Positions 1 through 14,713 of a DNA stretch of 51,898 nucleotides are shown piece by piece. Positions within the stretch are counted from its first letter, which is position 1. Every line of letters begins with the position of its first letter. The notes below the pieces were generated by a model. The model did not search any database. It saw only the letters and a program-made list of their open reading frames with translations, and was not told the origin of the DNA. This DNA comes from Nevskiaceae bacterium (GTDB taxonomy: Bacteria; Pseudomonadota; Gammaproteobacteria; Nevskiales; Nevskiaceae), in assembly GCA_021731445.1 (NCBI GenBank), contig JAKFXK010000031.1:1-51898 (forward strand), written 5' to 3'. The position numbers and the translations under genes were made by a program.

Positions 1-49
1 CGCCTTCGCTTCGCTACGGCGTTTTTTCCGGTGAACTTAGGCGTTAGGC
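1..49 (-). repeat. attC site of cassette E (cut by window edge)
   Basis: The core site GTTAGGC lies at 43-49. It is preceded by a short-type attC arm (GGTGAACTTAGGC) resembling the sites at 388-465 and 2318-2405. The far end lies outside the window, so the length is unknown. The stop codon of the neighbouring cassette gene overlaps the core. Confidence 0.7.
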
Positions 50-361
50 ATATGAAAAAACAGAATACAACAGCACTGCCGCTGGCGGAAGTAAATAAGC
101 CATGCTAGCCGCTCCGGTTTGATTGCCGTTTGGAATTGGCAACTTGGCATTTGATTTATTATAGCCTGCGGGTTTTGAGGGCGCCGTTTTAAACCCAATT
201 AACAAGAGAGCAATTGCTGGAATGGTTAAAACAGCAAAGGCCAGTGCCTCGCCTTTGGAATTGAGTTCCCAAATTGCAGCAGCGCCAACCAATGCGAAAG
301 CAGCAAGGCATAAACTTGGTATTAGAAAAACCCAATAGATGAAAGCTTTAAGAAATTTCAT
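44..361 (-). CDS. small membrane protein of integron cassette E
   Basis: A hydrophobic protein of about 105 residues with three likely membrane segments: near the N-terminus after MKFLKAFIYW, around the AFAVLTIPAIALLLIG stretch, and at the C-terminus (AYLLPPAAVLLY). I do not recognise a family. It is the only gene between attC sites 388-465 and 1-49 and points away from attI, as cassette genes usually do. I start at the ATG at 361. An upstream in-frame start at 406 lies inside the neighbouring attC, and neither has a clear ribosome binding site. The TAA stop is inside the attC core. The coding sequence is more A+T-rich than the chromosomal genes. Function unknown. Confidence 0.6.
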   Translation of the reverse strand: MKFLKAFIYWVFLIPSLCLAAFALVGAAAIWELNSKGEALAFAVLTIPAIALLLIGFKTAPSKPAGYNKSNAKLPIPNGNQTGAASMAYLLPPAAVLLYSVFSYA

Positions 362-387
362 AACTTGTGAAGTGCAGATTTTTTGAG

Positions 388-465
388 GCCCAACGCCTAA
401 GTTCACCGGAAAAACCGCCGTAGCGAAGCGGAGGCGGGTTTTTCCGGTGCAACGCCTTGTTGGGC
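388..465 (-). repeat. attC recombination site (short type, cassette D)
   Basis: 78 bp from GCCCAAC (388-394) to GTTGGGC (459-465). The inner arms pair (CACCGGAAAAACC with GGTTTTTCCGGTG) around a small loop, as expected of an attC that folds as single-stranded DNA for IntI. It is closely similar in arms and length to 2318-2405. Confidence 0.85.
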
Positions 466-786
466 GCGCTCACTTTCTAGTGCTTCAATCTGCTGAAGCA
501 CCGCAAAGAACTTTTTACCGAGGCTGGTAAAGCCATACTCGACATGAAGTGGAACCTCTGCGAACTCTGTTTTTGTGAAGACGCCATGCGCTACAAGCTT
601 GCGCAGGCGCTCATTGAGAACCTTTGTAGAGATGCCGGGAATGGCCCTCTCAAGCTGACCTGGGCGGGTAGTGCCTGTGTGAACGGCACGCAGGACGCTC
701 CATGACCATTTGCAGCCCAAGACATCTTCAAGCAGTGCTGTGATGCGGCCTGATGCTGGCTCAGGGTCAGGCTTCATAGGAACCAT
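403..786 (-). CDS. HxlR-family winged-helix transcriptional regulator (cassette D)
   Basis: A 127-residue DNA-binding protein of the HxlR (DUF24) type. It has the family pattern of a short N-terminal helix, W-S-x-x-V-L-R, a recognition region with GISTKVLNERLRKL, and the wing G-V-F-T-K with VEYGFTSLG. The usual N-terminal sensor cysteine is absent. One Cys sits near residue 25 (LGCKW), so redox sensing is possible but unproven. The start may be ATG 786 or ATG 777, and both lie by a duplicated 11-bp motif. The last 20 or so residues are encoded by the attC site itself. It is divergent from a thioredoxin-like gene within the same cassette, which suggests it controls that gene and itself. Confidence 0.8.
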   Translation of the reverse strand: MVPMKPDPEPASGRITALLEDVLGCKWSWSVLRAVHTGTTRPGQLERAIPGISTKVLNERLRKLVAHGVFTKTEFAEVPLHVEYGFTSLGKKFFAVLQQIEALESERAQQGVAPEKPASASLRRFFR

Positions 787-810
787 TTTGTAAGTAGAGA
801 ACCATTTTGT
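781..810. promoter_or_regulatory. candidate HxlR operator: tandem direct repeat
   Basis: AACCATTTTGT occurs at 781-791 and again at 800-810, a 19-bp period (about two helical turns), between the divergent regulator and thioredoxin-like genes. The left copy overlaps the regulator start codon. Position and spacing suit an autoregulatory site, but function is inferred only. Confidence 0.45.
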
Positions 811-889
811 GCCTTCTTTTCAAGCAGTTACTTTTATGAAGAATAGAGCAGGTGGCGCTGGGTCACAACCAACTGATGGAGATTTAAGC

Positions 890-1126
890 ATGGCAAAGAA
901 AGCGGTTTTTTACCACGCAGGTTGTTCGGTGTGCGTGGAGGCTGAACAGAACGTTGCGAAGGCTCTTGACACGGGACGCTACAACGTCGAGATCGTGCAT
1001 TTGGGGCAGCAAAAGGCTCGCGTGAAGGAAGCTGAAGCCGCCGGAGTGAAGTCGGTGCCCGCGCTCGTTTTGGATGGGCTGCCGTTTCATATCAACTTCG
1101 GGGCTGGCCTTGATGCTCTGAAGTAG
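890..1126 (+). CDS. thioredoxin/glutaredoxin-like protein (cassette D)
   Basis: A compact 78-residue thioredoxin-fold protein. It has a first strand with a C-S-V-C redox motif (FYHAGCSVCVEAEQNV), a cis-proline-type segment V-K-S-V-P-A-L-V, and a closing strand and helix. It should be a small cytosolic disulfide or thiol-exchange protein, as no signal peptide is present. I start at ATG 890 because GGAG at 878-881 is correctly spaced; an in-frame start at 809 would add a disordered-looking extension. It reads towards attI, opposite to the usual cassette gene direction, and diverges from the HxlR-type gene, so it must have its own promoter in 787-889. Partner and substrate are unknown. Confidence 0.75.
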   Translation: MAKKAVFYHAGCSVCVEAEQNVAKALDTGRYNVEIVHLGQQKARVKEAEAAGVKSVPALVLDGLPFHINFGAGLDALK

Positions 1127-1186
1127 AAGCATAACTGCGGGTGGCGGCCTCATATGTGATGAGCATGTGGGGCCGTTTTCTTTTAC

Positions 1187-1315
1187 GCCCAACGTTCGAG
1201 CTAACCGGCCCGCGGAGGCAAGCGCCGTAAGCCCAGTCCGCGATGATGCACCATGTGCCGCGGACTGGGCTTACGGCGCTTGCCGTAGCGGGTCCGGTTG
1301 AGCGAGTGGTTAGGC
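1187..1315 (-). repeat. attC recombination site (long type, cassette C)
   Basis: 129 bp from GCCCAAC (1187-1193) to GTTAGGC (1309-1315). It forms a long imperfect hairpin. The inner stem GCCGTAAGCCCAGTCCGCG pairs with its complement across the loop ATGATGCACCATGTG. The outer arms and loop match the site at 1768-1896, but the inner stem differs in both strands together. Confidence 0.88.
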
Positions 1316-1344
1316 CTCACTGTGCGCCAGCCGTGCTGCGAAAC

Positions 1345-1653
1345 TCACCTTGATCTTGGGCGTCGAAGCCGCGCCGAGACAGCAGCGCCCGTGGCGGTGA
1401 CGGCGCCAAGCACAGGAACCGCGATCGAGGCAATACCCAGGAGGAACGCCGCGCGCTCATAGCCGAGCGCGGCCGAGCCGATGAGGCCTGCGACGGCTGC
1501 AACAAACAGCCAGATCGAAACTAGGACAACAGTGCGCGGGCTCAGAAAGAGGCCCAAGGCCGCGCCGCACAGTAAGACCAACAACCAGGTTAGGTAAGCG
1601 CTATCCAACGCACGCCTCATCTGTCGATGCAGACTTCGCTCCGAGGAACTCAA
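1345..1653 (-). CDS. small integral membrane protein of cassette C
   Basis: About 102 residues, with three hydrophobic stretches that look membrane-spanning (around YLTWLLVLLCGAALGLF, VVLVSIWLFVAAVAGLIG and AAFLLGIASIAVPVLGA) and basic ends (LHRQMRR and ARLRRPRSR). No family recognised. It is the only plausible gene between the attC sites at 1187-1315 and 1768-1896. The start is uncertain: the frame opens with TTG at 1653, the first ATG is at 1620, and neither has an obvious Shine-Dalgarno. About 110 bases separate it from the upstream attC, room for a cassette-borne leader or promoter. Function unknown. Confidence 0.5.
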   Translation of the reverse strand: MSSSERSLHRQMRRALDSAYLTWLLVLLCGAALGLFLSPRTVVLVSIWLFVAAVAGLIGSAALGYERAAFLLGIASIAVPVLGAVTATGAAVSARLRRPRSR

Positions 1654-1767
1654 CTTGGATAGAGGTCATACAGGTCACCCTGGAAGTGAGCGAGGCGATT
1701 GAGGCTGGAGCGAGGAGAGGGATTGCACGATTCGGGTTGTGGGAGTGCAGGGCGGTCGATTCGTGAG

Positions 1768-1896
1768 GCCTAACGTTCGAGTTAACCGGCCCGCGGAGGC
1801 AGGCACCGTAAGGCCGGGCTGAGATGATGCACCATGTGCCTCAGCCCGGCCTTACGGTGCCTGCCGTAGCGGGTCCGGTTGAACGAGTGGTTAGGC
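1768..1896 (-). repeat. attC recombination site (long type, cassette B)
   Basis: 129 bp from GCCTAAC (1768-1774) to GTTAGGC (1890-1896). Inner stem arms ACCGTAAGGCCGGGCTGAG and their complement flank the same loop as the attC at 1187-1315. The exact length match with a different but still perfectly paired inner stem shows that structure, not sequence, is conserved. Confidence 0.88.
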
Positions 1897-1897
1897 C

Positions 1898-2314
1898 TCA
1901 TTGGCGCAGCTCCTTGCGGACGACCAGCTTCAGGCCAGACCAAACCTCGCTCACTGCGCAAACCTTGATGTCGACCAGGCCCATCGGGAGCGCTACCTCA
2001 CGAATTCTGTCTTCCGTGATGTCCGTCTGTACCTTCGATGCCTTTTTGGGCCACGAGACCCAGATCGCGGCATTGGGACGGATGTTCGTGCGCAAGCGCT
2101 TCAGGGTGATACCAAGTGCATCGTAGGACTCTGCGAAGACGTGCACGACATCTGTGTTCTCTGATACTCGCGCGTCAAACTTGACCCCTTCGGGAACAGG
2201 AGCCAGCAGTTCAGAGTAATTCTTCGGCGGATTCTCCAGGACCACTCGTGAGCCCTCGGTGATTCCGAGCTTCTTCGCCAAAGGAGTGCCGGAGTACCCA
2301 ACTGCTGGTTTCAT
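1898..2314 (-). CDS. DUF3052-family protein (cassette B)
   Basis: 138 residues. The beginning (GYSGTPLAKKLGI, G-S-R-V-V-L-E-N-P-P) and the segment P-N-A-A-I-W-V-S-W-P-K-K, followed by T-D-I-T-E-D-R-I-R-E, fit the DUF3052 family as I remember it, which is small, soluble and of unknown function. No signal peptide or membrane segment. The start ATG lies only 3 bases after the attC core of the preceding cassette. Its only Shine-Dalgarno-like bases (AGG of GTTAGGC) therefore lie inside the recombination site, and translation may depend on what is inserted upstream. The stop is 1 base from the next attC core, so almost the whole cassette is coding. Confidence 0.75.
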   Translation of the reverse strand: MKPAVGYSGTPLAKKLGITEGSRVVLENPPKNYSELLAPVPEGVKFDARVSENTDVVHVFAESYDALGITLKRLRTNIRPNAAIWVSWPKKASKVQTDITEDRIREVALPMGLVDIKVCAVSEVWSGLKLVVRKELRQ

Positions 2315-2317
2315 GAG

Positions 2318-2405
2318 GCCTAACGCTCAAGTTCACCGGAAAAACAGCCGTAGTGCAGCGCAGCGAAACGAAGGCTGGTTTTTCCGGTGCAACGCCTTGT
2401 TGGGC
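2318..2405 (-). repeat. attC recombination site (short type, cassette A)
   Basis: 88 bp from GCCTAAC (2318-2324) to GTTGGGC (2399-2405). Arms TTCACCGGAAAAAC and GGTTTTTCCGGTG pair as in the site at 388-465. This is the attC of the first cassette of the array. Confidence 0.87.
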
Positions 2406-2972
2406 CTAATTGCTACAAAACTCATGAACGCGCGCCTCGACAATACCGGCTCCGCTGGCGCGGGTGAAATTGAGCTCGATAGCATCGTATTGTTGGGTGG
2501 TGGTGTATGAGACTCTGCCTGGGCTTGCCGGGTCTTGAGTGCTACTGCCTCCGCCAGAGTTGAAATTGAATTGCTCTCGCTGGACACCACCTGCGTAGGT
2601 GACGAGTGAGATGACCAAGCCTGCCGAAGTGCCATAGGAAATGGAATGAACCATACCGGCGAGGCTACCCGCTGGGAACACAATGCCGCTCTGTGCGGTG
2701 GCTCGGAGAGTGACCGAGCCTGCTGAGCTAGCTGGCATATTGAGAGTGGCAAAGGTGCTGCCGTTGCCATCTATGGCTTGTGCCGCGTTTGAGACGTTGC
2801 AGCCGACACAACCGGAAGAAACAGACATTGATGTGGCAGTGCTACCACCAGATATAGGCCTGCAACCCTGCAATAAATTGCCGCCGCCGTTACTGCCGCC
2901 ACCGCCACCGCCACCGCAAGCCGACATAAATAAGGCAGCAGTTACAACAGTAGCCGCTCTCTTTAAATACAT
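2406..2972 (-). CDS. secreted lipoprotein of the first integron cassette
   Basis: 188 residues with a lipoprotein signal peptide: K4-R5, a hydrophobic stretch, and the lipobox M-S-A-C with the lipidated Cys at about residue 19, followed by a run of glycines as a flexible tether. Mature domain is unrecognised. It has four further cysteines (two in CVGC) and a beta-rich look (T-S-M-S-V-S-S-G-C, V-T-L-R-A-T), so an extracytoplasmic beta-sandwich is plausible. The start is supported by AAGGAG 7 bases upstream. As first cassette after attI it should be the best expressed from an integron Pc promoter. The stop codon abuts the attC core. Function unknown. Confidence 0.75.
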   Translation of the reverse strand: MYLKRAATVVTAALFMSACGGGGGGGSNGGGNLLQGCRPISGGSTATSMSVSSGCVGCNVSNAAQAIDGNGSTFATLNMPASSAGSVTLRATAQSGIVFPAGSLAGMVHSISYGTSAGLVISLVTYAGGVQREQFNFNSGGGSSTQDPASPGRVSYTTTQQYDAIELNFTRASGAGIVEARVHEFCSN

Positions 2973-2991
2973 AGGTAACTCCTTCTTTTAG

Positions 2992-3107
2992 GCCCAACGC
3001 CCTTTAGGCGTCAAAACCACCGCCTATCACGGCAGTAGATTGACGCAGCAAGCTAAAAATCTTACGCATGTCTATGATTCCCCTTACTTATTCTTGTGAG
3101 GTGCGAA
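2992..3107. other. attI region and divergent promoter region of the integron
   Basis: The GCCCAAC core at 2992-2998 marks the attI/cassette junction, between intI and the first cassette. Two TTGACG hexamers face outward: minus strand at 3014-3009 towards the cassettes and plus strand at 3040-3045 towards intI. They form a 7-bp inverted repeat (GCGTCAA/TTGACGC). They could be -35 elements of Pc and PintI, but I see no convincing -10 at 17 bp for either. No LexA box was recognised. Confidence 0.55.
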
Positions 3108-4103
3108 ATGAACGTGCCGGCAAAAGCGTCAACGCCTCCGAAGCCCCGTCTGCTAGACCAAGTGCGTGAACGCATCCGCACCTTGCACTATAGCTTGAGA
3201 ACAGAAAGCACCTACGTCAACTGGATAAAGCGCTTCATCATCCACCACGGCAAGCGTCATCCCAAAGAGATGGGCTTGCCAGAAGTGGAAACATTTCTGA
3301 CCAGCTTGGCGGTCGAGCGAAACGTTTCTGCTAGCACGCAAAATCAAGCATTGGCAGCGTTGCTGTTTCTCTACAAAGAAGTTTTAGGCGTCGAGTTGCC
3401 CTGGTTGAAGGATGTGACGCGTGCCAAGCGGCCTAAACGCCTTCCCAGCGTGCTTACAAAGCAGGAGTTGCAATCGCTGTTTGCCCAGCTGCCGCCGAAT
3501 GGTGATGTGCCTCTTGTGATTCGTCTGCTCTACGGCACCGGCATGCGAGTGCTCGAAGGGTTACGGCTTCGCGTGAAAGATATTGACCTTGCCCGATGCG
3601 AGATCATCATTCGCGAGGGCAAAGGCAACAAAGACCGCATCACGGTACTGCCGCAATCACTGATCGAGCCATTGCGCGCACAGCTAGTGTGGCGGCGCAC
3701 GGTGCACGATCATGATCTAGCTGATGGCCGCGCCGATGTGTGGCTGCCCGAGGCGCTTGAAATGAAGTATCCCAAGGCAGCGAGTGAGTGGCCTTGGCAG
3801 TTTGTGTTTGCGACTAAGAATTACGTGACCGATCCGCGATCAGGGGCCGTACGCCGCCACCATCTCGACGAGCGATTGATCCAGCGCCAGGTGAAGCAAG
3901 CGGCAACAGCCGCGCGGCTCAGCAAGCGGGTGACGCCGCATACGTTGCGTCATTGCTTTGCGACACATTTGCTTGAGTCGGGATACGACATCCGCACCGT
4001 ACAGGATTTGTTGGGGCATAAAGATGTAGCCACAACGATGATCTACACGCATGTGCTCAACAGAGGTGGTCGAGGCGTGGTCAGCCCGCTAGACATGCCC
4101 TAG
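3108..4103 (+). CDS. intI: integron integrase IntI
   Basis: Site-specific tyrosine recombinase (331 residues) that inserts and excises gene cassettes at attI/attC. Catalytic residues are visible: R147 in G-T-G-M-R, K in the REGKGNKDR strand (about 171-175), H278-x-x-R281 in TPHTLRH, H304 in LLGHKD, and Y313 in MIYTHV. The IntI-specific insertion lies at about 213-233 (around [17 protein letters not shown]) between the two catalytic halves and separates it from XerC/D. An N-terminal SAM-like domain ([13 protein letters not shown]) is present. I start at ATG 3108 with GAGG 6 bases upstream; a GTG at 3096 is also in frame. It diverges from the cassette array, as expected. No frameshift, so it appears functional. 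Confidence 0.93.
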
Positions 4104-4763: not shown

Positions 4764-4841
<78 letters not shown>

Positions 4842-4855
4842 CTAATCAACAACTT

Positions 4856-4883
4856 AGCCCAGATTAATCATCTGGGCTTTTTT
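4856..4883 (+). terminator. island-borne terminator for the tRNA operon
   Basis: A perfect 9-bp stem AGCCCAGAT/ATCTGGGCT with a 5-base loop, then six T. It lies 17 bases after tRNA-Lys and replaces the native terminator displaced to 14714-14744. Confidence 0.85.
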
Positions 4884-5271
4884 GTTGGTGCTACGCTGGT
4901 GCTACATTCCCACGCATTTTTGAAATTGGCGTCCGCCTTGTGCCAGAAGCGGCGGTTCGCCAAGGTCCACTATCAGAATCCCGATAGTTCAGTCCCATGC
5001 CTCGGCCACAGCTCCAATGCGACAGATGAACGCATTAGAGCCATCAGCGCTTATGAGTATTGTTTCTTCACGGATTACGCGCACGGACAATCGCACCATC
5101 GCCAACCGTCACACGGCGCGCAAGCCTATGCCGCAAGCTATTTAGCTGCTGGGGAACAGACCCCGCTTGACCGAATGACGGCTCATTGAGGACTACTACG
5201 GACAGAGTGGGCCAATCCAATAAGGCCCTTTATGCCACGTTGTTATGGCACCATGGCCAAAAGGGGGGGGA
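4884..5271. other. left end of island, no convincing gene
   Basis: It contains two direct copies of TGGTGCTAC (4886-4894, 4897-4905), 11 bp apart, which resemble GTGCTACA near the integrase end (14505-14512) and may be integrase arm-binding sites. An open frame at 4899-5189 has no ribosome binding site and no recognisable protein character. The rest probably holds the promoter of the operon that begins at 5272. Confidence 0.45.
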
Positions 5272-6732
5272 ATGTATTCAGTACTGCATTTGTCCGATCT
5301 GCATCGAGCGCCGGACGACAACCTGAGTAATCAGGAACTGCTTTCGAGCCTGCGCGCTGATAAGCATCGCTACGAAGCAGAAGACCCCGCAATCACAGTG
5401 CCGAAGGCTATCGTCGTGAGCGGCGACATCATTCAAGGGCTCGACCTTGGCACCACGGATGTGAGTGCTGAACTTCGTCGTCAATACGACGTCGCAGAAG
5501 ATTTTCTCGCGCGCTTGGCTGACGAATTTCTGGATGGTGATAGATCACAAATCGTTGTGGTGCCGGGAAATCATGACGTCGACTGGAATACGTCGCGAGC
5601 GGCTATGACTGAAGTTCCAGCAGGCAGCGAGCCGAAACCGAAGGATGCGTTCAAAGAAGACTCCAACTACCGTTGGGACTGGAAAACGAGAAAATTTTTC
5701 CAAATTCACGACCACTTCCATTACGCGAAAAAACTAGATGCCTATTGGGACTTTATAGAACGATTTTATAAAAACGTATCTGGCATTCCAAAGCTGGACC
5801 GCAACAGTGACTACGGTTTGTTTAGTCTCTTTGGTGGAAGGGTAGGCGTAGCCGCATTCAACTCCTGCCACGGCAATGACTGCTTCGCTGTTCACGGAGC
5901 CATAAAGCGAACCGCAATTTCGGAGAGCCACCTTCTAATGGGGGAAGCGCCTCATTGCTTCGAGCTATGGATTGCCGTTTGGCATCACAACATTGAAGGG
6001 CCTCCTTATCGAACGGACTACATGGACGTAAATTTGGTGCGCAACATGATTGGCCGAGGATTCCGTGTCGGAATGTATGGACATCAGCACAAGAATCAAC
6101 TCGAGCCCCGAGACATAAAGTTACCCGACAAGGAAACCATGGCAGTAGTTGGCGCCGGATCTTTATGCGCGGGCGCTAAGGAGCTGCCCACCGGATCGTA
6201 TCGGCAATACAACATATTAGAGTTCGGCGACGACTTAGAAAATGTTCGCGTCCATGTTCGCCAAATGGAAGTGGCTCAATTATTTTCAAAGGCCCATCTG
6301 AGCTCGGTGGGCGGTAAAAGCTACGTGGAATTGGCGTGGGATCAGCCCGCAGAAATTAAGGCCAAGCTTCAGGCGCGGCAGCAAAGTGCGATCGCTTTTC
6401 GGGTGAAGCAGATAGAAGCACATGTAAAAAGCAAAGAATTTTCCAAGGCGTTTGCACTTTTGTCGCCAAATGCGCAAAGCATGGACGCATACGAGAGAAC
6501 GCTCGCGATACAGGCCAGCGAAGGGCTGAGCAACTGGAAGGCAGTGATCCTCTACGCGGTGCCGCCTCGCACGATCAGTGATCTCGTCGCGGCAGTAAAT
6601 GCTCATAGTCGCATTAAGAACACTGCAGCCGCACGTGTACTTCTATCTGAATATGCCCTTGCTGTTGAAATGCCAGACTCGACGAAGCGTGATCTTATTC
6701 AGATGTTGAATGTGAAAGAAAAGCACGGATAA
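5272..6732 (+). CDS. calcineurin-like metallophosphoesterase with C-terminal helical extension
   Basis: Predicted binuclear-metal phosphoesterase of 486 residues. All family motifs appear in order: D9-x-H11 (LHLSDLH), G51-D52, G99-N100-H101-D102, H238-H239 and G270-H-x-H273, so the catalytic site looks intact. After the catalytic domain, roughly residues 310-486 are helix-rich, possibly TPR-like, and not typical of the family. I start at ATG 5272 because AAGGGGGGGGA directly precedes it and the first strand should begin there; an ATG at 5245 is in frame. The stop lies 4 bases before the Hsp90-like gene, so the pair is an operon. No signal peptide, so it is cytosolic. The substrate is unknown (nucleotide, nucleic acid or protein phosphate). 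It is A+T-rich relative to host genes, consistent with transfer. Confidence 0.85.
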   Translation: MYSVLHLSDLHRAPDDNLSNQELLSSLRADKHRYEAEDPAITVPKAIVVSGDIIQGLDLGTTDVSAELRRQYDVAEDFLARLADEFLDGDRSQIVVVPGNHDVDWNTSRAAMTEVPAGSEPKPKDAFKEDSNYRWDWKTRKFFQIHDHFHYAKKLDAYWDFIERFYKNVSGIPKLDRNSDYGLFSLFGGRVGVAAFNSCHGNDCFAVHGAIKRTAISESHLLMGEAPHCFELWIAVWHHNIEGPPYRTDYMDVNLVRNMIGRGFRVGMYGHQHKNQLEPRDIKLPDKETMAVVGAGSLCAGAKELPTGSYRQYNILEFGDDLENVRVHVRQMEVAQLFSKAHLSSVGGKSYVELAWDQPAEIKAKLQARQQSAIAFRVKQIEAHVKSKEFSKAFALLSPNAQSMDAYERTLAIQASEGLSNWKAVILYAVPPRTISDLVAAVNAHSRIKNTAAARVLLSEYALAVEMPDSTKRDLIQMLNVKEKHG

Positions 6733-6736
6733 AACA

Positions 6737-9040
6737 ATGGAAAAAATTCCTTTTCAGGTGGACATCAGTCGAGTAATTGAAGTTTTAGCCACCCAGATTT
6801 ATCAAACACCGCTTGCTCTACTTCGTGAGAATACGCAGAACTCGTATGACGCACTATTGCTTAGAAAGCAGTTGGGCCACTCTTTTGAGCCGCAGATTGA
6901 AATAACAATTTCCAGCGCTGAAATTAAGGTGTCGGACAATGGAATTGGGATGACCGGAATTGACTTGAAAAGTCACTATTGGCGTGCCGGTTCCAGCAGC
7001 AAAAATACGCCAGAAGCTCGCGCTGCCGGCGTAGTGGGTACTTTTGGAATCGGTGCAATGGCGAATTTCGGCATTGCCGAGGAATTGGAGGTTATTACCG
7101 AAAGTGCGACCACAGGAGAACGAACCAGATGCAAGGCGAGACGCTCTACGTTATCTGCGACCGACGATTGCATCGAATTTGAACCACTTGCGACCACAGG
7201 CTCAGCTGGAACAATTGTTCGCGCTGTAACGCAAAGCGGTATGACAATCAACGTCTCACAAGCGGTCGCATACATATCTGAGTTTGTGATGTTTTTGCCC
7301 ATGGTCGTTCGCGTCAATGGCATCATCGCGAGTCGCAAAAGCTATTCCTCAATTATCCCTGCAATTGCTCAAACGTGGTCTGAAAGCATTGTTGGTGCTG
7401 ACTTAGGCGGCGGTTTTCAATGCGAAATGGTCCTGGCCGGGTCCGGAAGCGGCGAACTTTTGGTTCAATGCTCGAATTTATCTATGGGAGGACAGCCTCT
7501 GAGCGGAGTCCTTCATCTCCGGCAAGGTATGAGTAATCTTCGGACATTTCGAAGTGGATTTGGCCTTGCGACTACGGCAGTTCACTCGGTATATCAATTC
7601 GGTGGTGTCGCAGACATTTTGGTGCTTCAACCGACCGCAGGACGCGAAGCGCTCACTACAGCTAGCACGCAGTTGCTTCAGCAGTGGGTTTCGAAGATAG
7701 ACGACTTTGTTTCAATCCGATTTTCGTCCCGTCCAGAGGCGGATCAAAACACCCAATTTATGACTTGGGCGGCGCAACGAGGTAGATACGACCTGTGTGG
7801 CCTACTGAAGATTTCCATTCAGCCCGGCTCATCGAGAACATTGCTTGAAGTTAAGGCCCAATCTGAAACAAAACCTTGGCTCGTCTACGGGGGTGCTGAT
7901 CAAAGCACCTTATCGCTGGCCTCCGAGGACAGGCCAATGGTTGTGCTATCTCGATCAAATCCACGCCGGCAGTGCGAGCATAACTACCTAAGGTCTTTCT
8001 GCAAAATCGAGGAAATGACTGACGATCCAAAAGTGCTCTCAATAAAAAAAGAGAAAGACTGGTCCTTGCCAGAGCAAGCTCTTTCTTTCAGGTTATCGGG
8101 AGTATTGTCGTCAGACTATTTCGTTGTTGCAAAAATCGGCTTCGGAAAAATGTCCCACGAACTGCCGATTCTTGTAACGCGTCGAAATGATCCAATAGAA
8201 ATTATTCTTGATCCAGAAGGTCAATCGGTTCAACTTCTCATCTCGGTATATGACAGCCAGTACGCGGCTTTTGACTCAATGGTCAAAGACTTTGTGAGAA
8301 GCGTCGTATTTCAAAAGATTGCAGATTTGGTGCCTAGTAGCACTCGCCAAGGCGCCGAGGCATTCCTTAAGTCTATCCAACGGTCGAGAGAGGTATTCGA
8401 GTATGAGCTCTCTGATTCTGATTCGTTGCAATCAATATGGGCAGATTACACTTCGGGTGAAATATCTATGCCCGAAGCGGTGCAAAAATCGATTGACGCT
8501 GCTGCAAAGTCAGTTCAAGTAATCGATTCAACGGTAAGTGCGCATGTGCGCGACGTGGTTCCAGACGTCGTAGATAATGCGGCAACAATCAATGTTGCTG
8601 CCGACATAAACGCAACAGAGTTTGCCGCCGCGCCGCCGATCATGCGACTTGAAAAGCCGACTGATCGAAAACTTCTGACCATTCCAGCATCGGAGCCTCC
8701 TCTTCAAGGGTATCGATGCTTTTTGGCGATAAGTGATCGTATCCGTGAAGATAGGGGAGACTTCTTTCTGCAGCCACATAAAACATCAGTAGTCTGGGGA
8801 GGGCAACGTGCGTTATTTATTTTTGAACATCATTCTGGTGAATTTGGGCTGTACTATGATATTCAGAGTCAAGAAATTATCGCCTCAGGATCAGGTGGAA
8901 AGGCATTTCCGACTTGCACCATAATTTTAAAAAATCGAATTTTTGTCCCGGTGCCTGCGGAGATTGAGGCCGCCTTTGTACCGGCCGCTGGCGAGAGAAA
9001 GAAGCTCCAAGTCAAATGCGACATTCTCTACATAGACTAA
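6737..9040 (+). CDS. Hsp90-like (GHKL) ATPase, partner of the metallophosphoesterase
   Basis: 767 residues. The N-terminal ATPase domain has the GHKL boxes: E31, N35 and D38 in RENTQNSYDA, D67-x-G-x-G71-M72 in VSDNGIGM, and G101-x-x-G104-x-G106 in GTFGIGA, closest to Hsp90/HtpG-type domains. The rest (about 200-767) does not match HtpG by eye. A middle region is followed by a linker rich in Ala/Val near 600-640 and a beta-rich C-terminal domain (about 655-767). It is therefore not a housekeeping chaperone but an Hsp90-domain protein of unknown specificity. The GGA of the preceding stop region (6727-6729) acts as Shine-Dalgarno, which suggests coupled translation. It is low in G+C relative to its surroundings. 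Cytosolic. Confidence 0.85.
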   Translation: MEKIPFQVDISRVIEVLATQIYQTPLALLRENTQNSYDALLLRKQLGHSFEPQIEITISSAEIKVSDNGIGMTGIDLKSHYWRAGSSSKNTPEARAAGVVGTFGIGAMANFGIAEELEVITESATTGERTRCKARRSTLSATDDCIEFEPLATTGSAGTIVRAVTQSGMTINVSQAVAYISEFVMFLPMVVRVNGIIASRKSYSSIIPAIAQTWSESIVGADLGGGFQCEMVLAGSGSGELLVQCSNLSMGGQPLSGVLHLRQGMSNLRTFRSGFGLATTAVHSVYQFGGVADILVLQPTAGREALTTASTQLLQQWVSKIDDFVSIRFSSRPEADQNTQFMTWAAQRGRYDLCGLLKISIQPGSSRTLLEVKAQSETKPWLVYGGADQSTLSLASEDRPMVVLSRSNPRRQCEHNYLRSFCKIEEMTDDPKVLSIKKEKDWSLPEQALSFRLSGVLSSDYFVVAKIGFGKMSHELPILVTRRNDPIEIILDPEGQSVQLLISVYDSQYAAFDSMVKDFVRSVVFQKIADLVPSSTRQGAEAFLKSIQRSREVFEYELSDSDSLQSIWADYTSGEISMPEAVQKSIDAAAKSVQVIDSTVSAHVRDVVPDVVDNAATINVAADINATEFAAAPPIMRLEKPTDRKLLTIPASEPPLQGYRCFLAISDRIREDRGDFFLQPHKTSVVWGGQRALFIFEHHSGEFGLYYDIQSQEIIASGSGGKAFPTCTIILKNRIFVPVPAEIEAAFVPAAGERKKLQVKCDILYID

Positions 9041-9220
9041 TCGACCGTGGCGTTGGTTACTGCCCAGCCCAATGTCTGTTATCGCAAAATCTCGGTCATC
9101 GTTGACGTGCTGTTAGGTGTCCGCTTTCAGGGTGCGTCTTTGGCGATCTCAACTTCCGCTTCGGGCTGATTCAAGACGTAGATACAGTTATTGACACAGG
9201 TCCAAAGGGTTACGGCTTTG

Positions 9221-10135
9221 CTACGGCAAGCCCATGATGAATTCCCGGTGTTTGAAGGCCCAGGTTGCACCAAGCAGCATCTTCATCTGTGAATAGGGCA
9301 TTGCTCCTAGGAAGCCATAACTCTCTCCCACGATCACGGCGAACAGTCGCATTTTGCGCCGCCACTCTTTCGCACCCGTGGTCATCCACGAAAATCGTGT
9401 GTTGGCAATTCGCCCTTTTCCTGAATATTCGACCAAACGCAGCCCGCGGTCCGCAAGTAGGCGTTGCTCGATGTGCTTGGAAATGTATTTGCCCACGTAG
9501 CGCGCAATCGCGTCTCTTGATGATTTGATCGGTAGCAGCTCGACTCGACCGAACCCGTAGCCTTTGGCTGTTTTGCGCCAGAACGCCCACTCTTGTTTTA
9601 GCTCTGGGCACGCACTGCTGTAGTCGCTTTGCTTCGCTGCGTTGAAATCAAATCCGGTGCGGATATCGACAGGCAGTACGACCAGTAAATGATAGTGAAT
9701 GCGTCCCGACTTCTGCCGCTCGATTACGCGGATGATTGCCGGGTAGCGATCCGCTAGTACTCCGCTGCGCAACGAGTTGAATCGTCGTTGTGCTTCTTTT
9801 GCACTGGTGATGTGTTCTGCGAAAGTAAGAGTGAGGAAACCGATACGCTCAATCCCATGCCTCTCGCAGAGCGCTTCGACATTCCAAGCGAGAGCAGCGG
9901 CTGATTTTCGCTGCTGCGGAGAAAGCGTGTTTAGGTTGAGTGCTGCTTTCTCTGCTGAGCGTTGCAGTGCAGGTCCGTATCGGCGTTCCAGTACTGCCCA
10001 AGCGTCCATGCCTGTGGCGTCGTTGGGGTGTGGTTCGTTTGAGTTGTTACTAAATAGACAAGGAAGAACCGCACCAGCCGTTGCACCCGTTTGATCGGGT
10101 GCAGCCGTACGCGGCCCTGCAAGGGGCGACTTCAT
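9221..10135 (-). CDS. HUH-type replication initiator-like protein
   Basis: 304 residues with the three signatures of a single-stranded-DNA nicking Rep protein: F100-L-T-L-T-F105 (motif 1), H147-Y-H149 within GRIHYHLLV (the HUH metal site), and Y213-V-G-K216-Y217 (catalytic tyrosine helix). This fits inovirus- or plasmid-like rolling-circle initiators and suggests the excised island can replicate. The start at 10135 is strongly supported by AAAGGAGG seven bases upstream. It follows the AlpA-like gene, probably in one operon. A relaxase-like mobilisation role is the main alternative. No partner coat or secretion genes are present. Confidence 0.78.
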   Translation of the reverse strand: MKSPLAGPRTAAPDQTGATAGAVLPCLFSNNSNEPHPNDATGMDAWAVLERRYGPALQRSAEKAALNLNTLSPQQRKSAAALAWNVEALCERHGIERIGFLTLTFAEHITSAKEAQRRFNSLRSGVLADRYPAIIRVIERQKSGRIHYHLLVVLPVDIRTGFDFNAAKQSDYSSACPELKQEWAFWRKTAKGYGFGRVELLPIKSSRDAIARYVGKYISKHIEQRLLADRGLRLVEYSGKGRIANTRFSWMTTGAKEWRRKMRLFAVIVGESYGFLGAMPYSQMKMLLGATWAFKHREFIMGLP

Positions 10136-10200
10136 GCGCGGCCTCCTTTCGGCCGCGACCTTCGCGTCCGGGTCGCGCCAGGGGCGCGATCCCGGCGCGC

Positions 10201-10398
10201 TTAGGCCGCGTCCTTCAGGTTGCTGGCAATGAAAGCTTCCACGTCTGAAGCGCGGTAGCGGACGAGTCCACCAACCTTCACGTAAGGCAGTGGGTAGCGC
10301 TTGGAGCAGCGCCAGACAGCGAGGGTGTGCTGGGTGACCCCTAACAGTTTGCTAACGGTTTGCGGTGTGAGGAGCTGGGTAAGAACGGCGACGGTCAT
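10201..10398 (-). CDS. AlpA/excisionase-like HTH protein
   Basis: 65 residues. It is a small winged-helix DNA-binding protein of the HTH_17/MerR-like excisionase type: L-T-P-Q-T-V-S-K-L-L-G-V, then T-L-A-V-W-R, P-Y-V-K-V-G-G-L-V-R-Y-R and D-V-E-A-F-I. Proteins of this kind act as excisionases or activate the integrase gene in P4-like islands. I start at ATG 10398 with GAG about 8 bases upstream; the frame extends to 10434. It lies 65 bases upstream of the HUH protein gene, in the same direction. Confidence 0.8.
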   Translation of the reverse strand: MTVAVLTQLLTPQTVSKLLGVTQHTLAVWRCSKRYPLPYVKVGGLVRYRASDVEAFIASNLKDAA

Positions 10399-10472
10399 GG
10401 CGAATCTCGGTGCAGTCCAAAGGCGGACCGTCACGGATTCAATGGCATGCGAAAGCGCAGGAAAACGCTGAC

Positions 10473-10493
10473 ACCCCTGTGATGGGTAGGGGT
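10473..10493. repeat. inverted repeat upstream of AlpA/rep genes
   Basis: ACCCCT and AGGGGT separated by 9 bases, in the untranslated region before the AlpA-like and HUH genes. It could be an operator or part of a replication origin hairpin. Functional assignment is speculative. Confidence 0.3.
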
Positions 10494-10578
10494 ATCAGGC
10501 CCATTGGGCGTATCTAAAAGGCGAGTGAAAACAGGGCGATGCGAGGTGATCGAAAAATTATTTTTGACTGCTTGGGTA

Positions 10579-11226
10579 TCACTGTTCGCCTGGTCGGATA
10601 ACGCGCGCGATTCGGTCTGCAGCGGTAGAGCTGATGCCGATAAAGTGCGTTGTGATCCATTCAGAAATAACCTTGTTGGTTGGCTCTGCTTCAGGCTTGG
10701 CTGACGAGAGCCAGAAGTGATCGATAGCGGCGCAGGCAGCTTCTAGAGCTGGTGTCGTGAACTGGCTTTGCAGCACGCGTCCACGCGCGCTGTCCGCAGC
10801 TTGCGGTTTGCTGGGCGCTGGAAAGATTTTGGTGAGTATCGTGGCGCGCTCATTTCCAACAAGATCGGGGCGACTGGCTGCCCAACGACCAAAATGTGTG
10901 GGATCAATCAATTCTTCACTGAAGACGCCCCACTTTTTGCGCTTCTGGATTTGAAGATTGCCAGCGAGTACGGCACGCATTGCATAGTCGTAGAAGTTTT
11001 CGGCATCTGGCACATATGGCCAGTACGGTGGCCAACACGTGCGAAAGAAGGGAATTGGAATTAAGCCGAAGGTCGCGTCACAGGCTTCGCGGAGAGTCCA
11101 AATGTCATGACGCAGCCAGATGACAAGGCGGGCTTCGGAAGCTTTTAGCGCGTAACTCCTAGGCTTAGAAAGCCAGCGATTTGGCGGCCTCACAGTGACG
11201 TTTTGTTGGGCGTTCTGATCAGGCAT
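10579..11226 (-). CDS. island protein of unknown function
   Basis: 215 soluble residues, family not recognised. Visible features are a basic start (RPPNRWLSKPRSY), a segment W-L-R-H-D-I-W-T-L-R-E-A-C reminiscent of short hypothetical proteins common in integrated islands, a Trp/Tyr/Pro-rich stretch (CWPPYWPYVPDAE), and a C-terminal helical part (about 140-215). I start at ATG 11226 with GAGG at the right distance; the open frame upstream overlaps the antitoxin gene and is not real. It begins 7 bases after the antitoxin stop, so it may be cotranscribed with the toxin-antitoxin pair. Confidence 0.65.
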   Translation of the reverse strand: MPDQNAQQNVTVRPPNRWLSKPRSYALKASEARLVIWLRHDIWTLREACDATFGLIPIPFFRTCWPPYWPYVPDAENFYDYAMRAVLAGNLQIQKRKKWGVFSEELIDPTHFGRWAASRPDLVGNERATILTKIFPAPSKPQAADSARGRVLQSQFTTPALEAACAAIDHFWLSSAKPEAEPTNKVISEWITTHFIGISSTAADRIARVIRPGEQ

Positions 11227-11233
11227 GTACGCC

Positions 11234-11548
11234 TCAAGCGAAGTGAACTTCTGCCTTGGTGCCGATCTTCTTCTGCACAGCAGAGAAGATGGCGGAGAGG
11301 CTGTCCATGCCGGGATTGCCTCGCGCGGAAAGCATGCGGTGCAGGCTCTTGGCAGGCTTGTGGGTCTTGGTGGCCAGTGCCTCAAAACCGATGGTGGCGT
11401 TGACGAGATCGCGCAGGATCAGGCGGGCAGGCTCAGGTTCGCCGCTCAGCATGAGCGTGGCTGCTTCATCGAGCAGGGCTTTTGCGAACGCCGGCTCGCG
11501 CTGTACGCGGTCAGTGACGGTGTCTTTGAAGTCGCGGGTGAGTGCCAT
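11234..11548 (-). CDS. HigA-like antitoxin (HTH addiction module protein)
   Basis: 104 residues of the predicted-regulator antitoxin type that pairs with HigB/RelE-like killer proteins (F-K-D-T-V, L-L-D-E-A-A, then the HTH region KPAKSLHRMLSARGNPGMDS). It should neutralise the upstream toxin and repress the operon. GAGG seven bases before the ATG overlaps the toxin's 3' end, and only 5 bases separate the two genes. The toxin-first order is characteristic of higBA. Cytosolic. Confidence 0.85.
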   Translation of the reverse strand: MALTRDFKDTVTDRVQREPAFAKALLDEAATLMLSGEPEPARLILRDLVNATIGFEALATKTHKPAKSLHRMLSARGNPGMDSLSAIFSAVQKKIGTKAEVHFA

Positions 11549-11553
11549 TTGGA

Positions 11554-11913
11554 TTACCTCGATTTTTTAGGGCTGGGTTTGGCTGGCTTCTCAGCCTTTT
11601 TCCGTGCCTTGTATTCGGTGTGCAGTGCTTTGGCGGTGGCGATGTCTTTCGGCTGAGTCTTCTTGATGCCACCACCAAAAAGGATGATCAGGGCATCGCC
11701 ATCTTTGGCGAGATAGATTCGATACCCCGGTCCCCAGTCGATTCGGTATTCGCCGATGCCGTCAAACCACTTGATGCTTGAGGTGTTGCCGGTCGCCATG
11801 CGTGCCTTAGCGACGGTTGCTTTCGCAGCCGCCTGAGCATCAAGGTCGTTGAACCATTCGCTATAGGGCGATGTGCCGTTTTCGCGGATGTATTCGAGGA
11901 CTCGAATGCTCAT
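11554..11913 (-). CDS. RelE/HigB-like toxin (addiction module killer protein)
   Basis: 119 residues. A RelE/ParE-superfamily fold is indicated by E-Y-I-R-E-N-G-T-S-P-Y-S-E-W-F near the N-terminus, GIGEYRIDWGPGYRIYLA, and the strand I-I-L-F-G-G-G-I-K-K-T-Q, which is diagnostic of the addiction-module killer subfamily. Expected activity is ribosome-dependent mRNA cleavage. The tail is Lys-rich (ARKKAEKPAKPSPKKSR). It is the first gene of a toxin-antitoxin operon with a palindrome just upstream. On an island such a module favours retention and may also act against phage. Confidence 0.88.
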   Translation of the reverse strand: MSIRVLEYIRENGTSPYSEWFNDLDAQAAAKATVAKARMATGNTSSIKWFDGIGEYRIDWGPGYRIYLAKDGDALIILFGGGIKKTQPKDIATAKALHTEYKARKKAEKPAKPSPKKSR

Positions 11914-11922
11914 GTCGAAATG

Positions 11923-11938
11923 GTAACGTATTTGTTAC
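11923..11938. promoter_or_regulatory. candidate toxin-antitoxin operator
   Basis: Palindrome GTAAC-GTATTT-GTTAC starting 10 bases upstream of the toxin start codon, where the antitoxin HTH would be expected to bind. Confidence 0.5.
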
Positions 11939-12035
11939 TTATCTTGCTAGCCCTGCCTTGTATGCTGTTGTTGGGAAACGTTGCAGCGGCTAACACTGAA
12001 TGCAGCGGACGCAACAAAGCCATCAGGGGGAAATC

Positions 12036-12695
12036 ATGGAATTAAGACCACCAGTACGGCCCTTGCATGTCCGTCCTCGAGAAGACGACTCCAAGCAAAT
12101 GCTGATGGCCATCATCATTCTGCTCGTCGGAGTGATTGCGGTATTCGCGTTCTACTCGCACCGAACGAGCAATGCCAAGTTGAGCGTGTCGAATGCGCTA
12201 CAGCAGCAGCAAGAGTTTCCAGCTGCTGGTCTACCGGGTGCTCAAGAGCAGACGGCACCAGCCCTGGAGCGGCAGATTGTTTATCAGCAGCCAGCCGCGC
12301 CTGTAGGTCCAAGCACATCCGATATCAGCCGCTATAACTCGATGCAGGAGTCTTGCTATCGCATGGCGCGAATGAATGCGGATGGCGAATACCCGGCATT
12401 GCAGCAGGCGGCTTGCAATGATTACGCGCGCTTTGCGGCGTCAGTAGGGATTGATGCGGGGCAGCTGCCTGATGTGAGGATTCAGCAGCAAGTACAGCAG
12501 CCCGCGCCACGTCAGTTAGCCCAGAGCAACTCCCATCGGTCTCCTTCTGCCCTGTGCGAAGGACTTGAGCGGCAGAAGGAAGCTATCAATGCGCGCACGC
12601 GGCAAAGCCATACCTCATGGGAGGCGGAGTACTTCCGCGAAGAGCTACGTAAGATCAATGCGCAGATGTGGGATTTAAATTGCCGTAATCACTAG
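12036..12695 (+). CDS. single-pass membrane protein of unknown function
   Basis: 219 residues. A short cytosolic Arg/Pro-rich start is followed by one transmembrane helix at about 22-41 (MLMAIIILLVGVIAVFAFYS), then a Gln/Ala/Pro-rich spacer and a periplasmic C-terminal part with four cysteines and a helical end (CEGLERQKEAINARTRQ). This suggests an anchored periplasmic protein with disulfides. I start at ATG 12036 with AGGGGG just upstream; an ATG at 12000 lacks one. It is convergent with the secreted protein gene at 12731-13147. Function unknown; no similarity to pilus or secretion proteins that I can name. Confidence 0.65.
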   Translation: MELRPPVRPLHVRPREDDSKQMLMAIIILLVGVIAVFAFYSHRTSNAKLSVSNALQQQQEFPAAGLPGAQEQTAPALERQIVYQQPAAPVGPSTSDISRYNSMQESCYRMARMNADGEYPALQQAACNDYARFAASVGIDAGQLPDVRIQQQVQQPAPRQLAQSNSHRSPSALCEGLERQKEAINARTRQSHTSWEAEYFREELRKINAQMWDLNCRNH

Positions 12696-12730
12696 CTTCA
12701 CTTTTTGCGTCGCTCGCGGGTTGACGGATT

Positions 12731-13147
12731 CTACTTTCCGTATTCCGAGCAACTGACTTTGCTCACTTCGATTTGGTCAATCTGACAGGGATTCTTGTCG
12801 CTGCACCACCGCACATCGACTCGTTTGGTTTCTTCCGCTGTGCGCGCTGAGGCCACTGCGAATTGATAGAAAAACTGGAAGTTCGTTGTTCTTTTCTCGC
12901 CATTCTGGGAGTGATGCACGATGCCGTCTGCAGTGACGACAACAGTGCGATCAGGCTTGGCATCGACAATCGTGTACTTGGCGTCGATGGACAGTTTGGC
13001 GTTGTCGTAGGGGATGAGGCGCAGGCTGTGTTTCAAAACTTCTACTGCGCCCTTGCAGTCGGTGACGGCATAAGTATTGGACGCAGCGCTCATCAAGCAG
13101 AGCGATACGCACGAGATCGAAAGGTTGCGTCGGAAGTCAGCAGTCAT
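12731..13147 (-). CDS. secreted protein of unknown function
   Basis: 138 residues beginning with a signal peptide (R-R-N-L-S, hydrophobic core, cleavage probably after SNTYA near residue 27). The mature part of about 110 residues has four cysteines (DC, WC, PC and SC), enough for two disulfides, and beta-strand patterns (S-I-D-A-K-Y-T-I-V-D-A, R-T-V-V-V-T-A-D-G). The start at ATG 13147 has AAGGAG seven bases upstream; the frame extends to 13216 without a good signal. It lies 72 bases before the integrase gene's 3' end and reads the same way. Family not recognised. Confidence 0.65.
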   Translation of the reverse strand: MTADFRRNLSISCVSLCLMSAASNTYAVTDCKGAVEVLKHSLRLIPYDNAKLSIDAKYTIVDAKPDRTVVVTADGIVHHSQNGEKRTTNFQFFYQFAVASARTAEETKRVDVRWCSDKNPCQIDQIEVSKVSCSEYGK

Positions 13148-13219
13148 GGCAGGTCTCCTTCTGTGGATTTGATAGCGCCGAACCTCGTTTGAGGTTGCGT
13201 CGAATACTAAAAGCATTCT

Positions 13220-14482
13220 TTACGCTTTGACATGATCGCTATTCAACGCGGGCTTGCTGGATGGCAATCGCTCGTAGACAAAGTCAGAGATGCGTTGCAT
13301 CGGGTCACGCAGACGTTCGATGTTCCTGCCGATATAGCCTGCAGTGACATCGCCGGTGATTCGATGGTTGAGCAGCCGCTTGAGCGCGTAATGAGATAGA
13401 TCGAGGCTTTCTGCAATGGTTGCGAAGGTGCGTCGCAGATCGTGCATGGTGAAAGACGTGCCGGATTGATCGATCACACGACGCATCTGATAGCGCGGCT
13501 CGTGCAGAGGTTTTGCGTCGTCTTCGCCGGGAAAAACGTAGGGAGAGCCGGTGTTGTTTGCTTCTCGCGCGACCAGCAGCTGGGTGAGCTGGCTCGACAA
13601 GGGCAGGACGTGATCGCTGTAGTTTTTGGTATCGGGAACGGTGAGGGTTTGACCTTGCAGGTCGACGTGCGTCCAGAGTAGACCAGCGGATTCAGAGCGG
13701 CGCAGTCCCGTTAGAAGCGTTAGCAAAAGGTAATCGCCGACGCGCTTGCCCATCGTGTCCCATTCGTCCGACCGAAGCTTTTCAACAGCCGCAAGCCAAG
13801 CGGGAAGCTCATGCTCGCGGATGTAGGTTTCACGACGTTTCGGGCGCGCCCAGGCTTTTGTTTTGGAGAGACGCTTTACCGGGTTGAAAGTTAGGACTGC
13901 GTCTTCGCCTTCTGCGTCATATCGGCCTTGAGCGAAGTTCCAGATGGATCGGAAGGTGCGCATGGCCGAGTCGGCATACGCGCCGCCGCTATTTTTTGCG
14001 AGCTTGGCATGGCGATCCGCCACCATCTGGCCGGTGATGCTGCTGATTGGCTTGGCCTGCCAATCTTTCAGCGCTGCATTCATGATTTGCCGATAAACCC
14101 ATTGGGTCTTGGGACGAAGTGTTCTGACACGCAGCATTTCCTCGAAGGCTTCTTCGAGCTTCACTTGCTGGGTGCGCTCTTTCAGTTTTTCTGATTGCGG
14201 GTCGATGCCTTGGGCGATGTCACCGCAGACTTGCTCGCAACGCTTGCGCGCATTTTCGGGGGTGAGTGCTGGATAGCGGCCCAAGGTGATGCGCTTCACC
14301 TGGCCATTGATGCGTCGTTGTACTACCCAGCTCTTCGCGCCCTGGTCGGTGACACTCAATCGCAAAGCGGGTAGTCGCGGGTCTTCGTAATAGTGTCGCG
14401 TGCCGATTGCCGGAGACGGTAGTGCGTCGATGATTTTCTTGTTGAACTGGATGGGTTCGGCCATGACCGTATCGGGGATCAT
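13220..14482 (-). CDS. P4-type tyrosine integrase of the tRNA-Lys island
   Basis: 420 residues. An N-terminal arm-binding domain of the DUF4102 type (about 10-95) is followed by a core-binding SAM-like domain (105-205) and a catalytic domain with R261 (TGLRRSE), H347-x-x-R350 (MHDLRRTFA), H373 (LLNHR) and Y383 (TAGYIG), so it looks active. It would join and excise the element at the 47-bp repeats, the right copy of which lies 174 bases beyond its start. The start could be ATG 14482 or ATG 14464; neither has a clear Shine-Dalgarno. A strong inverted repeat precedes it. Confidence 0.95.
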   Translation of the reverse strand: MIPDTVMAEPIQFNKKIIDALPSPAIGTRHYYEDPRLPALRLSVTDQGAKSWVVQRRINGQVKRITLGRYPALTPENARKRCEQVCGDIAQGIDPQSEKLKERTQQVKLEEAFEEMLRVRTLRPKTQWVYRQIMNAALKDWQAKPISSITGQMVADRHAKLAKNSGGAYADSAMRTFRSIWNFAQGRYDAEGEDAVLTFNPVKRLSKTKAWARPKRRETYIREHELPAWLAAVEKLRSDEWDTMGKRVGDYLLLTLLTGLRRSESAGLLWTHVDLQGQTLTVPDTKNYSDHVLPLSSQLTQLLVAREANNTGSPYVFPGEDDAKPLHEPRYQMRRVIDQSGTSFTMHDLRRTFATIAESLDLSHYALKRLLNHRITGDVTAGYIGRNIERLRDPMQRISDFVYERLPSSKPALNSDHVKA

Positions 14483-14655: not shown

Positions 14656-14702
14656 CTCTTAATCAGTAGGTTCCCGGTTCGAGTCCGGGGCGACCCACCA
14701 AG
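14656..14702. repeat. island attachment site, distal copy (47-bp direct repeat)
   Basis: Exact copy of 4795-4841: the 3' part of tRNA-Lys without its 5' half. It is therefore not a functional tRNA but the boundary of the island, and was the original 3' end of the host gene. Confidence 0.95.
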
Positions 14703-14713
14703 TGCGCGATCAA

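Follow-up and report, generated by a model that had tools for sequence, protein, structure and literature searches.

What is the function of two adjacent genes, encoding a phosphoesterase and an Hsp90-like ATPase, that are carried by an integrated element of a Nevskiaceae bacterium? The DNA analysed here, referred to as the window, is a stretch of 51,898 nucleotides (assembly GCA_021731445.1, contig JAKFXK010000031.1, positions 1 to 51,898 of the forward strand). The two genes in question are the following.

5272..6732, + strand: calcineurin-like metallophosphoesterase (MPE) of 486 residues, predicted effector (Pfam Metallophos, 2e-8)
6737..9040, + strand: Hsp90-family ATPase of 767 residues, predicted sensor or switch (HATPase_c_3, 5e-9; PRK14083, 1e-24)

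The pair is a dedicated two-gene unit. We consider it likely that this unit, cargo of an integrative element, serves anti-phage defence, with the phosphoesterase as effector under the control of an Hsp90-type switch. The pair is read as a predicted anti-phage system because of its conservation as a pair, its intact catalytic residues, its mobile and defence-rich context, the predicted Hsp90 fold of the ATPase, and the kinship of the MPE to the defence proteins DS-8 and DS-9. An earlier note, based on the letters of the window, had proposed a defence operon at this position; the proposal gained support from the defence and mobile context and from the distant relationship of the MPE to two validated anti-phage phosphoesterases. 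Protection, direct binding of the two proteins, the assignment of the sensor, the substrate and the trigger are what we infer.

Relatives of the ATPase were sought with an alignment of three ATPases, a query that is blind to the neighbouring gene. Eight further relatives were obtained in genome contigs and two in IMG/VR; others were present on one type of Pseudomonas aeruginosa megaplasmid and on one Rhizobium plasmid. An MPE gene was located directly upstream in all relatives with an intact N-terminus (15/15), most of the gene pairs overlapping by 4 bp (ATGA), and adjacency of the homologues, proposed beforehand as a check, was thereby verified. The relatives were distributed among Pseudomonadota, Bacteroidota, Chloroflexota, Poribacteria, plasmids, and a Mu-like phage. 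One of the eight relatives in genome contigs (L019) was cut off at the contig end, the MPE of L014 was split by a frame break, and that of L021 was strongly diverged. Two relatives came from a later genome sample, searched with the ATPase alone after the claim had been formed, and also had an MPE upstream; the third match of this sampling (L179), which lies on a 5-kb contig and has decayed to a remnant, was left out of the counts. Chance adjacency was rejected on the 15/15 count, which includes these two relatives. Detection in IMG/VR depended on the query: a single protein retrieved nothing, the alignment retrieved the two full-length pairs, and an alignment of MPEs gave one weak match. No match was obtained in E. 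coli genomes by megablast. On the Rhizobium plasmid (L013:8532-10004), the annotation divides the MPE into several short hypothetical proteins; its full frame of 490 residues is intact.

The MPE profile had no match in 128 other Hsp90-like loci, and each of the six genomes checked encoded exactly one such MPE, the one adjoining the ATPase. The ATPase scores were bimodal, with at least 736 bits for members of the pair and at most 83 bits for other proteins. In a tree of 60 Hsp90-like proteins, 13 Hsp90 proteins of the pairs formed one clade (support 99/98), with L021 on a long branch. Many phage contigs (L101-L106, L114-L117, L120, and L127) carry other Hsp90- or GHKL-like proteins, distinct from the ATPases of the pair, which are about 670 residues long or lie inside giant frames of 1,700-3,000 residues.

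Both reading frames of the window are intact, as anticipated by the earlier note, which had described a calcineurin-type phosphoesterase lying 4 bases before a 767-residue protein. The MPE frame ends at position 6732 and is followed, on the same strand, by a 4-bp gap and the ATPase gene. The ATG at 5272 was preferred as the start of the MPE over that at 5245 on the basis of the alignment of relatives and of a G-rich stretch immediately before it. The Metallophos score was 35.2 bits for a Pfam cut-off of 21.5 bits, and the metal ligands D9, H11, D52, N100, H101, H238/H239, H271, and H273 were invariant in an alignment of 10 relatives. Judged by this profile and by the complete set of di-metal ligands, the protein is a calcineurin-like MPE. 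In an AlphaFold2 (AF2) model with a mean predicted local distance difference test (pLDDT) score of 84.9, residues 1-358 form a catalytic domain resembling SMPDL3A and YydB, and residues 360-485 form helical hairpins, in keeping with the helical C-terminal extension noted from the sequence. The folds nearest to residues 1-357 were YydB (Z 25.2), SMPDL3A (Z 21), and Rv0805 (Z 21), as determined with VIA-align. The closest of these, Bacillus subtilis YydB (PDB-IHM 9a6c), was aligned over 294 residues at 3.4 Å with 14% identity. A fold search for viral relatives in BFVD returned generic phosphoesterases and SbcD types only. YydB has been modelled in complex with YydD, which we take to be an ATPase of a family different from that of the window. 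In one of 10 members, the MPE had a Pfam match of the ANAPC3/TPR type (5e-4).

The ATPase comprises a GHKL domain (residues 1-200), an Hsp90-type middle domain (about 200-430), a less certain helical region (430-550), and a beta-rich extension (about 630-767), the C-terminal extension as a whole amounting to about 200 residues. Complete GHKL ATP-binding boxes had been reported from the sequence, and they proved invariant across 11 aligned relatives (E31, N35, D67, G69, G71, the GTFGIG box, and R303 of the PTAGR motif). Comparison with HtpG by hhalign gave 99.6% over 194 columns, the N domain alone being detectable, with E31, N35, and D67 aligned to E34, N38, and D80 of HtpG; the middle domain gave no sequence-profile match to HtpG. 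The AF2 model (mean pLDDT 80.1, parts of residues 539-625 below 50) superposed on TRAP1 with Z 24.2 over 304 residues at 3.3 Å for the N domain and part of the middle domain, and with Z 22.4 over 384 residues at 4.8 Å for both domains (residues 7-430). With regard to the C-terminal dimerisation domain of Hsp90, the alignment extends to about residue 545, near the region of low pLDDT, only at a root-mean-square deviation of about 8 Å. The absence of an HtpG-like remainder, as previously claimed, was therefore verified for sequence profiles but is probably incorrect for the fold, since residues 7-430 superpose on TRAP1. Judged by the model, the protein is a genuine Hsp90 relative in its N and middle domains. 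It shares with HtpG, TRAP1, and Hsp90 the N domain by sequence, the fold of both domains by model, and the equivalents of the catalytic Glu, Asn, and Asp residues, but it differs from them by its separate clade, its beta-rich C-terminal extension, and its operonic partner. Its score against the curated HtpG model NF003555 was 40.7 bits, for a cut-off of 371. A misread HtpG was rejected on the basis of the separate clade and of a separate HtpG kept by the genome on contig C66 (766 bits with NF003555).

Diagnostic defence genes (Lamassu, Septu, AbiD, Hma, and AbiE) were present in five of the ten readable neighbourhoods of the pair. Lamassu LmuA and LmuB were encoded downstream of the pair in L015, together with a PDC-S31 candidate and HsdM; Septu PtuA and a patatin lay beside the pair in L016; and AbiD was near it in L017. 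The conjugative plasmid L012 carried ABC-3C genes and a DUF6088 (AbiEi-type) gene. In Poribacteria (L021:3919-20500), the diverged pair was embedded in an Hma operon, in the order HmaA-MPE-Hsp90-HmaB-HmaC and 10 bp before HmaB, which suggests modular exchange between defence systems. In L094 (6490-10328), a Mu-like phage carries the pair in the vicinity of the genes for GemA and the Mu transposase, and a neighbouring protein of 578 residues shows a weak nSTAND3 match. Flanking proteins were also compared with PADLOC models at a threshold of 1e-25. The 109 proteins flanking ten pair loci matched 60 models, including LmuA, LmuB, PtuA, PtuB, HmaA-C, AbiD, and AbiEi, whereas the 127 proteins flanking ten control HtpG loci matched 8 models, all generic ATPases or candidates. 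As regards the type of locus, which the earlier note had proposed as a check, the pair was encountered not in core loci but on plasmids, on an integrative element, on a Mu-like phage, and, for half of the readable neighbourhoods, next to defence genes.

The best NCBIfam matches of the window MPE were the anti-phage phosphoesterases DS9_1 (5e-13) and DS8 (3e-8). Metallophosphoesterase effectors were first validated in phage defence in 2026, with DS-8 and DS-9; defence by either system is lost when the active site of its metallophosphatase is mutated (PMC13092281). DS-8 is an E. coli single-protein system combining a metallophosphatase with a NACHT domain, and it has been linked to the cGAMP-cleaving enzyme SMPDL3A (PMC13092281). 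The pair resembles DS-8 by the kind of phosphoesterase (9/10 MPEs match the DS8 model NF053861), the SMPDL3A-like fold, and an ATPase partner that is a plausible sensor. It differs in consisting of two proteins with an Hsp90/GHKL ATPase instead of a single protein with a NACHT P-loop NTPase, and no NACHT match was found in the 486-residue MPE. DS-9 consists of a metallophosphatase and a HAD phosphatase (PMC13092281). All 10 MPEs match its model DS9_1 (NF053862), the best E-value among the matches to the DS9_1 and DS8 models being 2e-37, and both systems are two-gene units with the phosphoesterase gene first. However, the partner in our pair is an Hsp90-family ATPase, the second gene matching HATPase_c_3 and PRK14083 and no HAD family, and the MPE covers only positions 195-481 of DS9_1, whose N-terminal part is missing; the equivalog cut-off of NF053862 was not reached.

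The Shedu protein VcSduA, which has an N-terminal GHKL ATPase (paraMORC3), provides a further comparison, since the E27A substitution abolishes its defence (PMC12137116). In both cases a GHKL ATPase is thought to control an effector, and defence by VcSduA needs ATP hydrolysis. The effector of VcSduA is nevertheless a fused PD-(D/E)xK nuclease (DUF4263), of which the 767-residue ATPase showed no Pfam or PADLOC match; the effector proposed here is a separate phosphoesterase, and the best profile and fold matches of the window ATPase are Hsp90 proteins. The ATPase scored 35.8 bits with the BbrUII/HgiDII model NF050001, in the GHKL part only (cut-off 550), and 12.2 bits with the MzaB model NF041932 of the Mza system (cut-off 850). 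The identities DS-8, DS-9, Shedu, Mza, BbrUII, and HtpG were rejected on the features tested. The earlier note could not assign the pair to an established defence system, and no PADLOC 2023, Pfam, or NCBIfam 2026 model names it. No paper in the open literature that was searched was found to describe the pair, an earlier listing being possible in the DefensePredictor tables, the newest DefenseFinder, or preprints. The pair is probably an undescribed and uncatalogued bacterial immune system, which may be viewed as an ATPase-gated effector operon of a familiar type with an unusual ATPase.

Several observations weigh against an immune function. Half of the readable neighbourhoods (5/10) lacked a diagnostic defence gene, and the difference between pair loci and HtpG loci (5/10 versus 0/10, p of about 0.016 in a one-sided Fisher test) was obtained with an imperfect control, since core HtpG loci are not matched to accessory regions. 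The kinship of the MPE to DS-8 and DS-9, as estimated from profile scores, is distant, because these lie far under the equivalog cut-offs (48.6 versus 420 bits for DS9_1 and 31.8 versus 790 bits for DS8). Finally, the family is rare: with the query genome included in each count, the pair was present in 1/398 Pseudomonadota genomes (the query itself), 2/385 genomes of the class of L016, 2/393 of the order of L017, and 3/301 of the phylum of L020.

In the anti-phage reading that we favour, the MPE is the most plausible effector, since phosphoesterase activity is required for defence in its distant relatives DS-8 and DS-9. For the sensor or switch, the strongest candidate is the Hsp90 protein, in view of the precedents provided by the GHKL domain of VcSduA, the NACHT domain of DS-8, and DnaJ with bNACHT25, the last being a case of chaperone-based sensing of infection (PMC12169576). 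The private, diverged Hsp90-family ATPase would sense infection by way of a client, such as a phage protein or the folding load, and would change conformation with ATP. The di-metal MPE, once released or activated by the Hsp90 protein, would hydrolyse a nucleotide, a cyclic nucleotide, or a nucleic acid and thereby halt the growth of the phage, with the cell itself perhaps being sacrificed. The specific version, in which ATP-driven closure of the Hsp90 protein on phage proteins or under folding stress switches on a docked MPE and leads to the destruction of a nucleotide that is essential or serves in signalling, is put forward tentatively, as one possibility that we would not yet bet on. Eukaryotic PP5, a PPP-type Ser/Thr phosphatase, docks on Hsp90 via a helical-repeat TPR domain. 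By analogy, the helical C-terminal domain of the MPE may be the part that docks on the Hsp90 protein, both cases associating an Hsp90 with a metallophosphatase bearing a helical domain of docking type. The MPE is not of the PPP type, however, and its helical domain resembles TPR by analogy alone. PDB 8gae was among the structural matches of the window ATPase.

If this reading is correct, an immune system with a private Hsp90 would be a prokaryotic parallel to Hsp90-PP5 and to the NLR immunity that is poised by Hsp90. An effector of the DS-8/DS-9 type wired to a dedicated Hsp90 would constitute a third architecture and offer a second handle on the substrate of that effector. This raises the question of whether sensing infection, as distinct from general chaperoning, can be the task of an Hsp90. 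With its small size, its intact genes, and its occurrence in named species (Oceanibaculum and Rhizobium), the pair lends itself to direct testing.

The Hsp90 protein might instead restrain the MPE, keeping it folded but inactive in the manner of an antitoxin, so that loss of the chaperone or its titration by a phage would free a toxic MPE. Such a device would still serve defence or maintenance of the element. The fixed gene order with translational coupling, the carriage of the pair by mobile elements, and the presence of a toxin-antitoxin pair nearby in the window are compatible with this arrangement, as is the behaviour of Hsp90 proteins, which keep signalling clients poised, as in the cases of NLRP3 and plant R proteins that are cited in PMC12169576. 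However, most type II antitoxins are small, and an ATPase of 767 residues with invariant catalytic residues suggests active cycling; we regard restraint as unlikely.

Phage anti-CBASS enzymes and ring nucleases destroy immune second messengers, and the MPE could likewise protect its carrier element by counter-defence, with the Hsp90 protein as a folding aid. The carriers (a Mu-like phage, plasmids, and an integrative element) and the likeness of the MPE fold to the nucleotide phosphodiesterases SMPDL3A and Rv0805, the former tied to DS-8 (PMC13092281), would fit this role. It is nonetheless very improbable, given that defence systems occupy half of the readable neighbourhoods, that the Poribacteria pair lies inside the Hma operon, that the relatives with data (DS-8 and DS-9) are defensive, and that genes for counter-defence tend to be small and to be carried by phages. 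Least probable of all is an accessory pair of an ordinary kind, for stress or nucleotide salvage, spread by mobile elements with no immune role. It would suit the half of the neighbourhoods devoid of diagnostic defence genes, and also the loci L020, L018, and L180 (Chloroflexota and Prevotellaceae), where the pair lies among ordinary-looking genes. It would not suit the recurrent link to unrelated defence systems, the specific matches of the MPE to models of anti-phage phosphoesterases, which rank above those to other MPE families, or the patchy cross-phylum distribution, which with the defence neighbours led us to reject a metabolic or core-gene reading as the leading view.

The pair lies on an integrated element of 9.9 kb (4795-14702), with the following features.

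4764..4839, + strand: tRNA-Lys (CTT), integration target (ARAGORN, Rfam RF00005)
4795..4841, + strand: attL, 47-bp repeat, 3' part of tRNA-Lys (100% identity to 14656-14702)
9221..10135, - strand: rolling-circle replication initiator, G2P/ORF2 type (PF23343, 6e-11; phrog_3419, 7e-11)
10201..10434, - strand: small HTH_17 protein, excisionase- or AlpA-like regulator (PF12728, 2e-9)
11234..11548, - strand: likely cognate antitoxin of 104 residues, 5 bp after the toxin gene (gene order and size)
11554..11913, - strand: HigB/RelE-type toxin (phrog_3445 'toxin', 2e-18)
13220..14482, - strand: tyrosine integrase, P4-type (Pfam Arm-DNA-bind_3, 2e-15, and Phage_integrase, 3e-15; phrog_1, 1e-52)
14656..14702, + strand: attR, duplicated 3' part of tRNA-Lys (repeat match to attL)

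The tRNA island suspected from the sequence was corroborated by the ends of the element, a perfect 47-bp direct repeat of the 3' part of tRNA-Lys(CTT), and by the P4-type integrase gene adjoining the far repeat. Counted from attL, the MPE-ATPase pair is the first cargo of the element. It is A+T-rich, as had been stated, with a G+C content of 46-52% across 5-9 kb versus about 60-65% for most of the window past 23 kb. As for the toxin-antitoxin pair reported on the island, the toxin was recognized by phrog_3445 inside the element; the role of its 104-residue partner, which had no Pfam match, is suggested by gene order.

Neither the full-length ATPase nor the rolling-circle initiator was found in four congeners, and the sister genome G001 has another sequence after tRNA-Lys and lacks the element. 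The right flank of the element (window 14656-16039) consists of an EAL/cNMP gene followed by pheS/pheT, and on the left of the element there is a tRNA-Ser-Arg-His-Lys cluster. In the four congeners, the right flank comes after tRNA-Arg(ccg) or tRNA-Val(gac) and not after that cluster. A clean comparison with an empty site failed because the right flank follows a different tRNA in these four sister genomes; the mismatch may stem from rearrangement, from the presence of a second element, or from an assembly join or artefact.

An open reading frame of 231 residues (12000-12695), on the strand opposite to the element's own genes, encodes a likely membrane segment and resembles Zot very weakly (phrog_197, E 0.07); it is perhaps a remnant of filamentous-phage ancestry. 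Outside the element, positions 1-4103 of the window contain a chromosomal integron with an IntI integrase (3096-4103; TIGR02249, 1e-142), at least four attC-like repeats with cores of the GTTAGGC/GCCTAAC type (near 380-440, 1180-1322, 1760-1903, and 2310-2400), and cassette reading frames on the minus strand encoding an HxlR regulator (403-786) and a DUF3052 protein (1898-2314).

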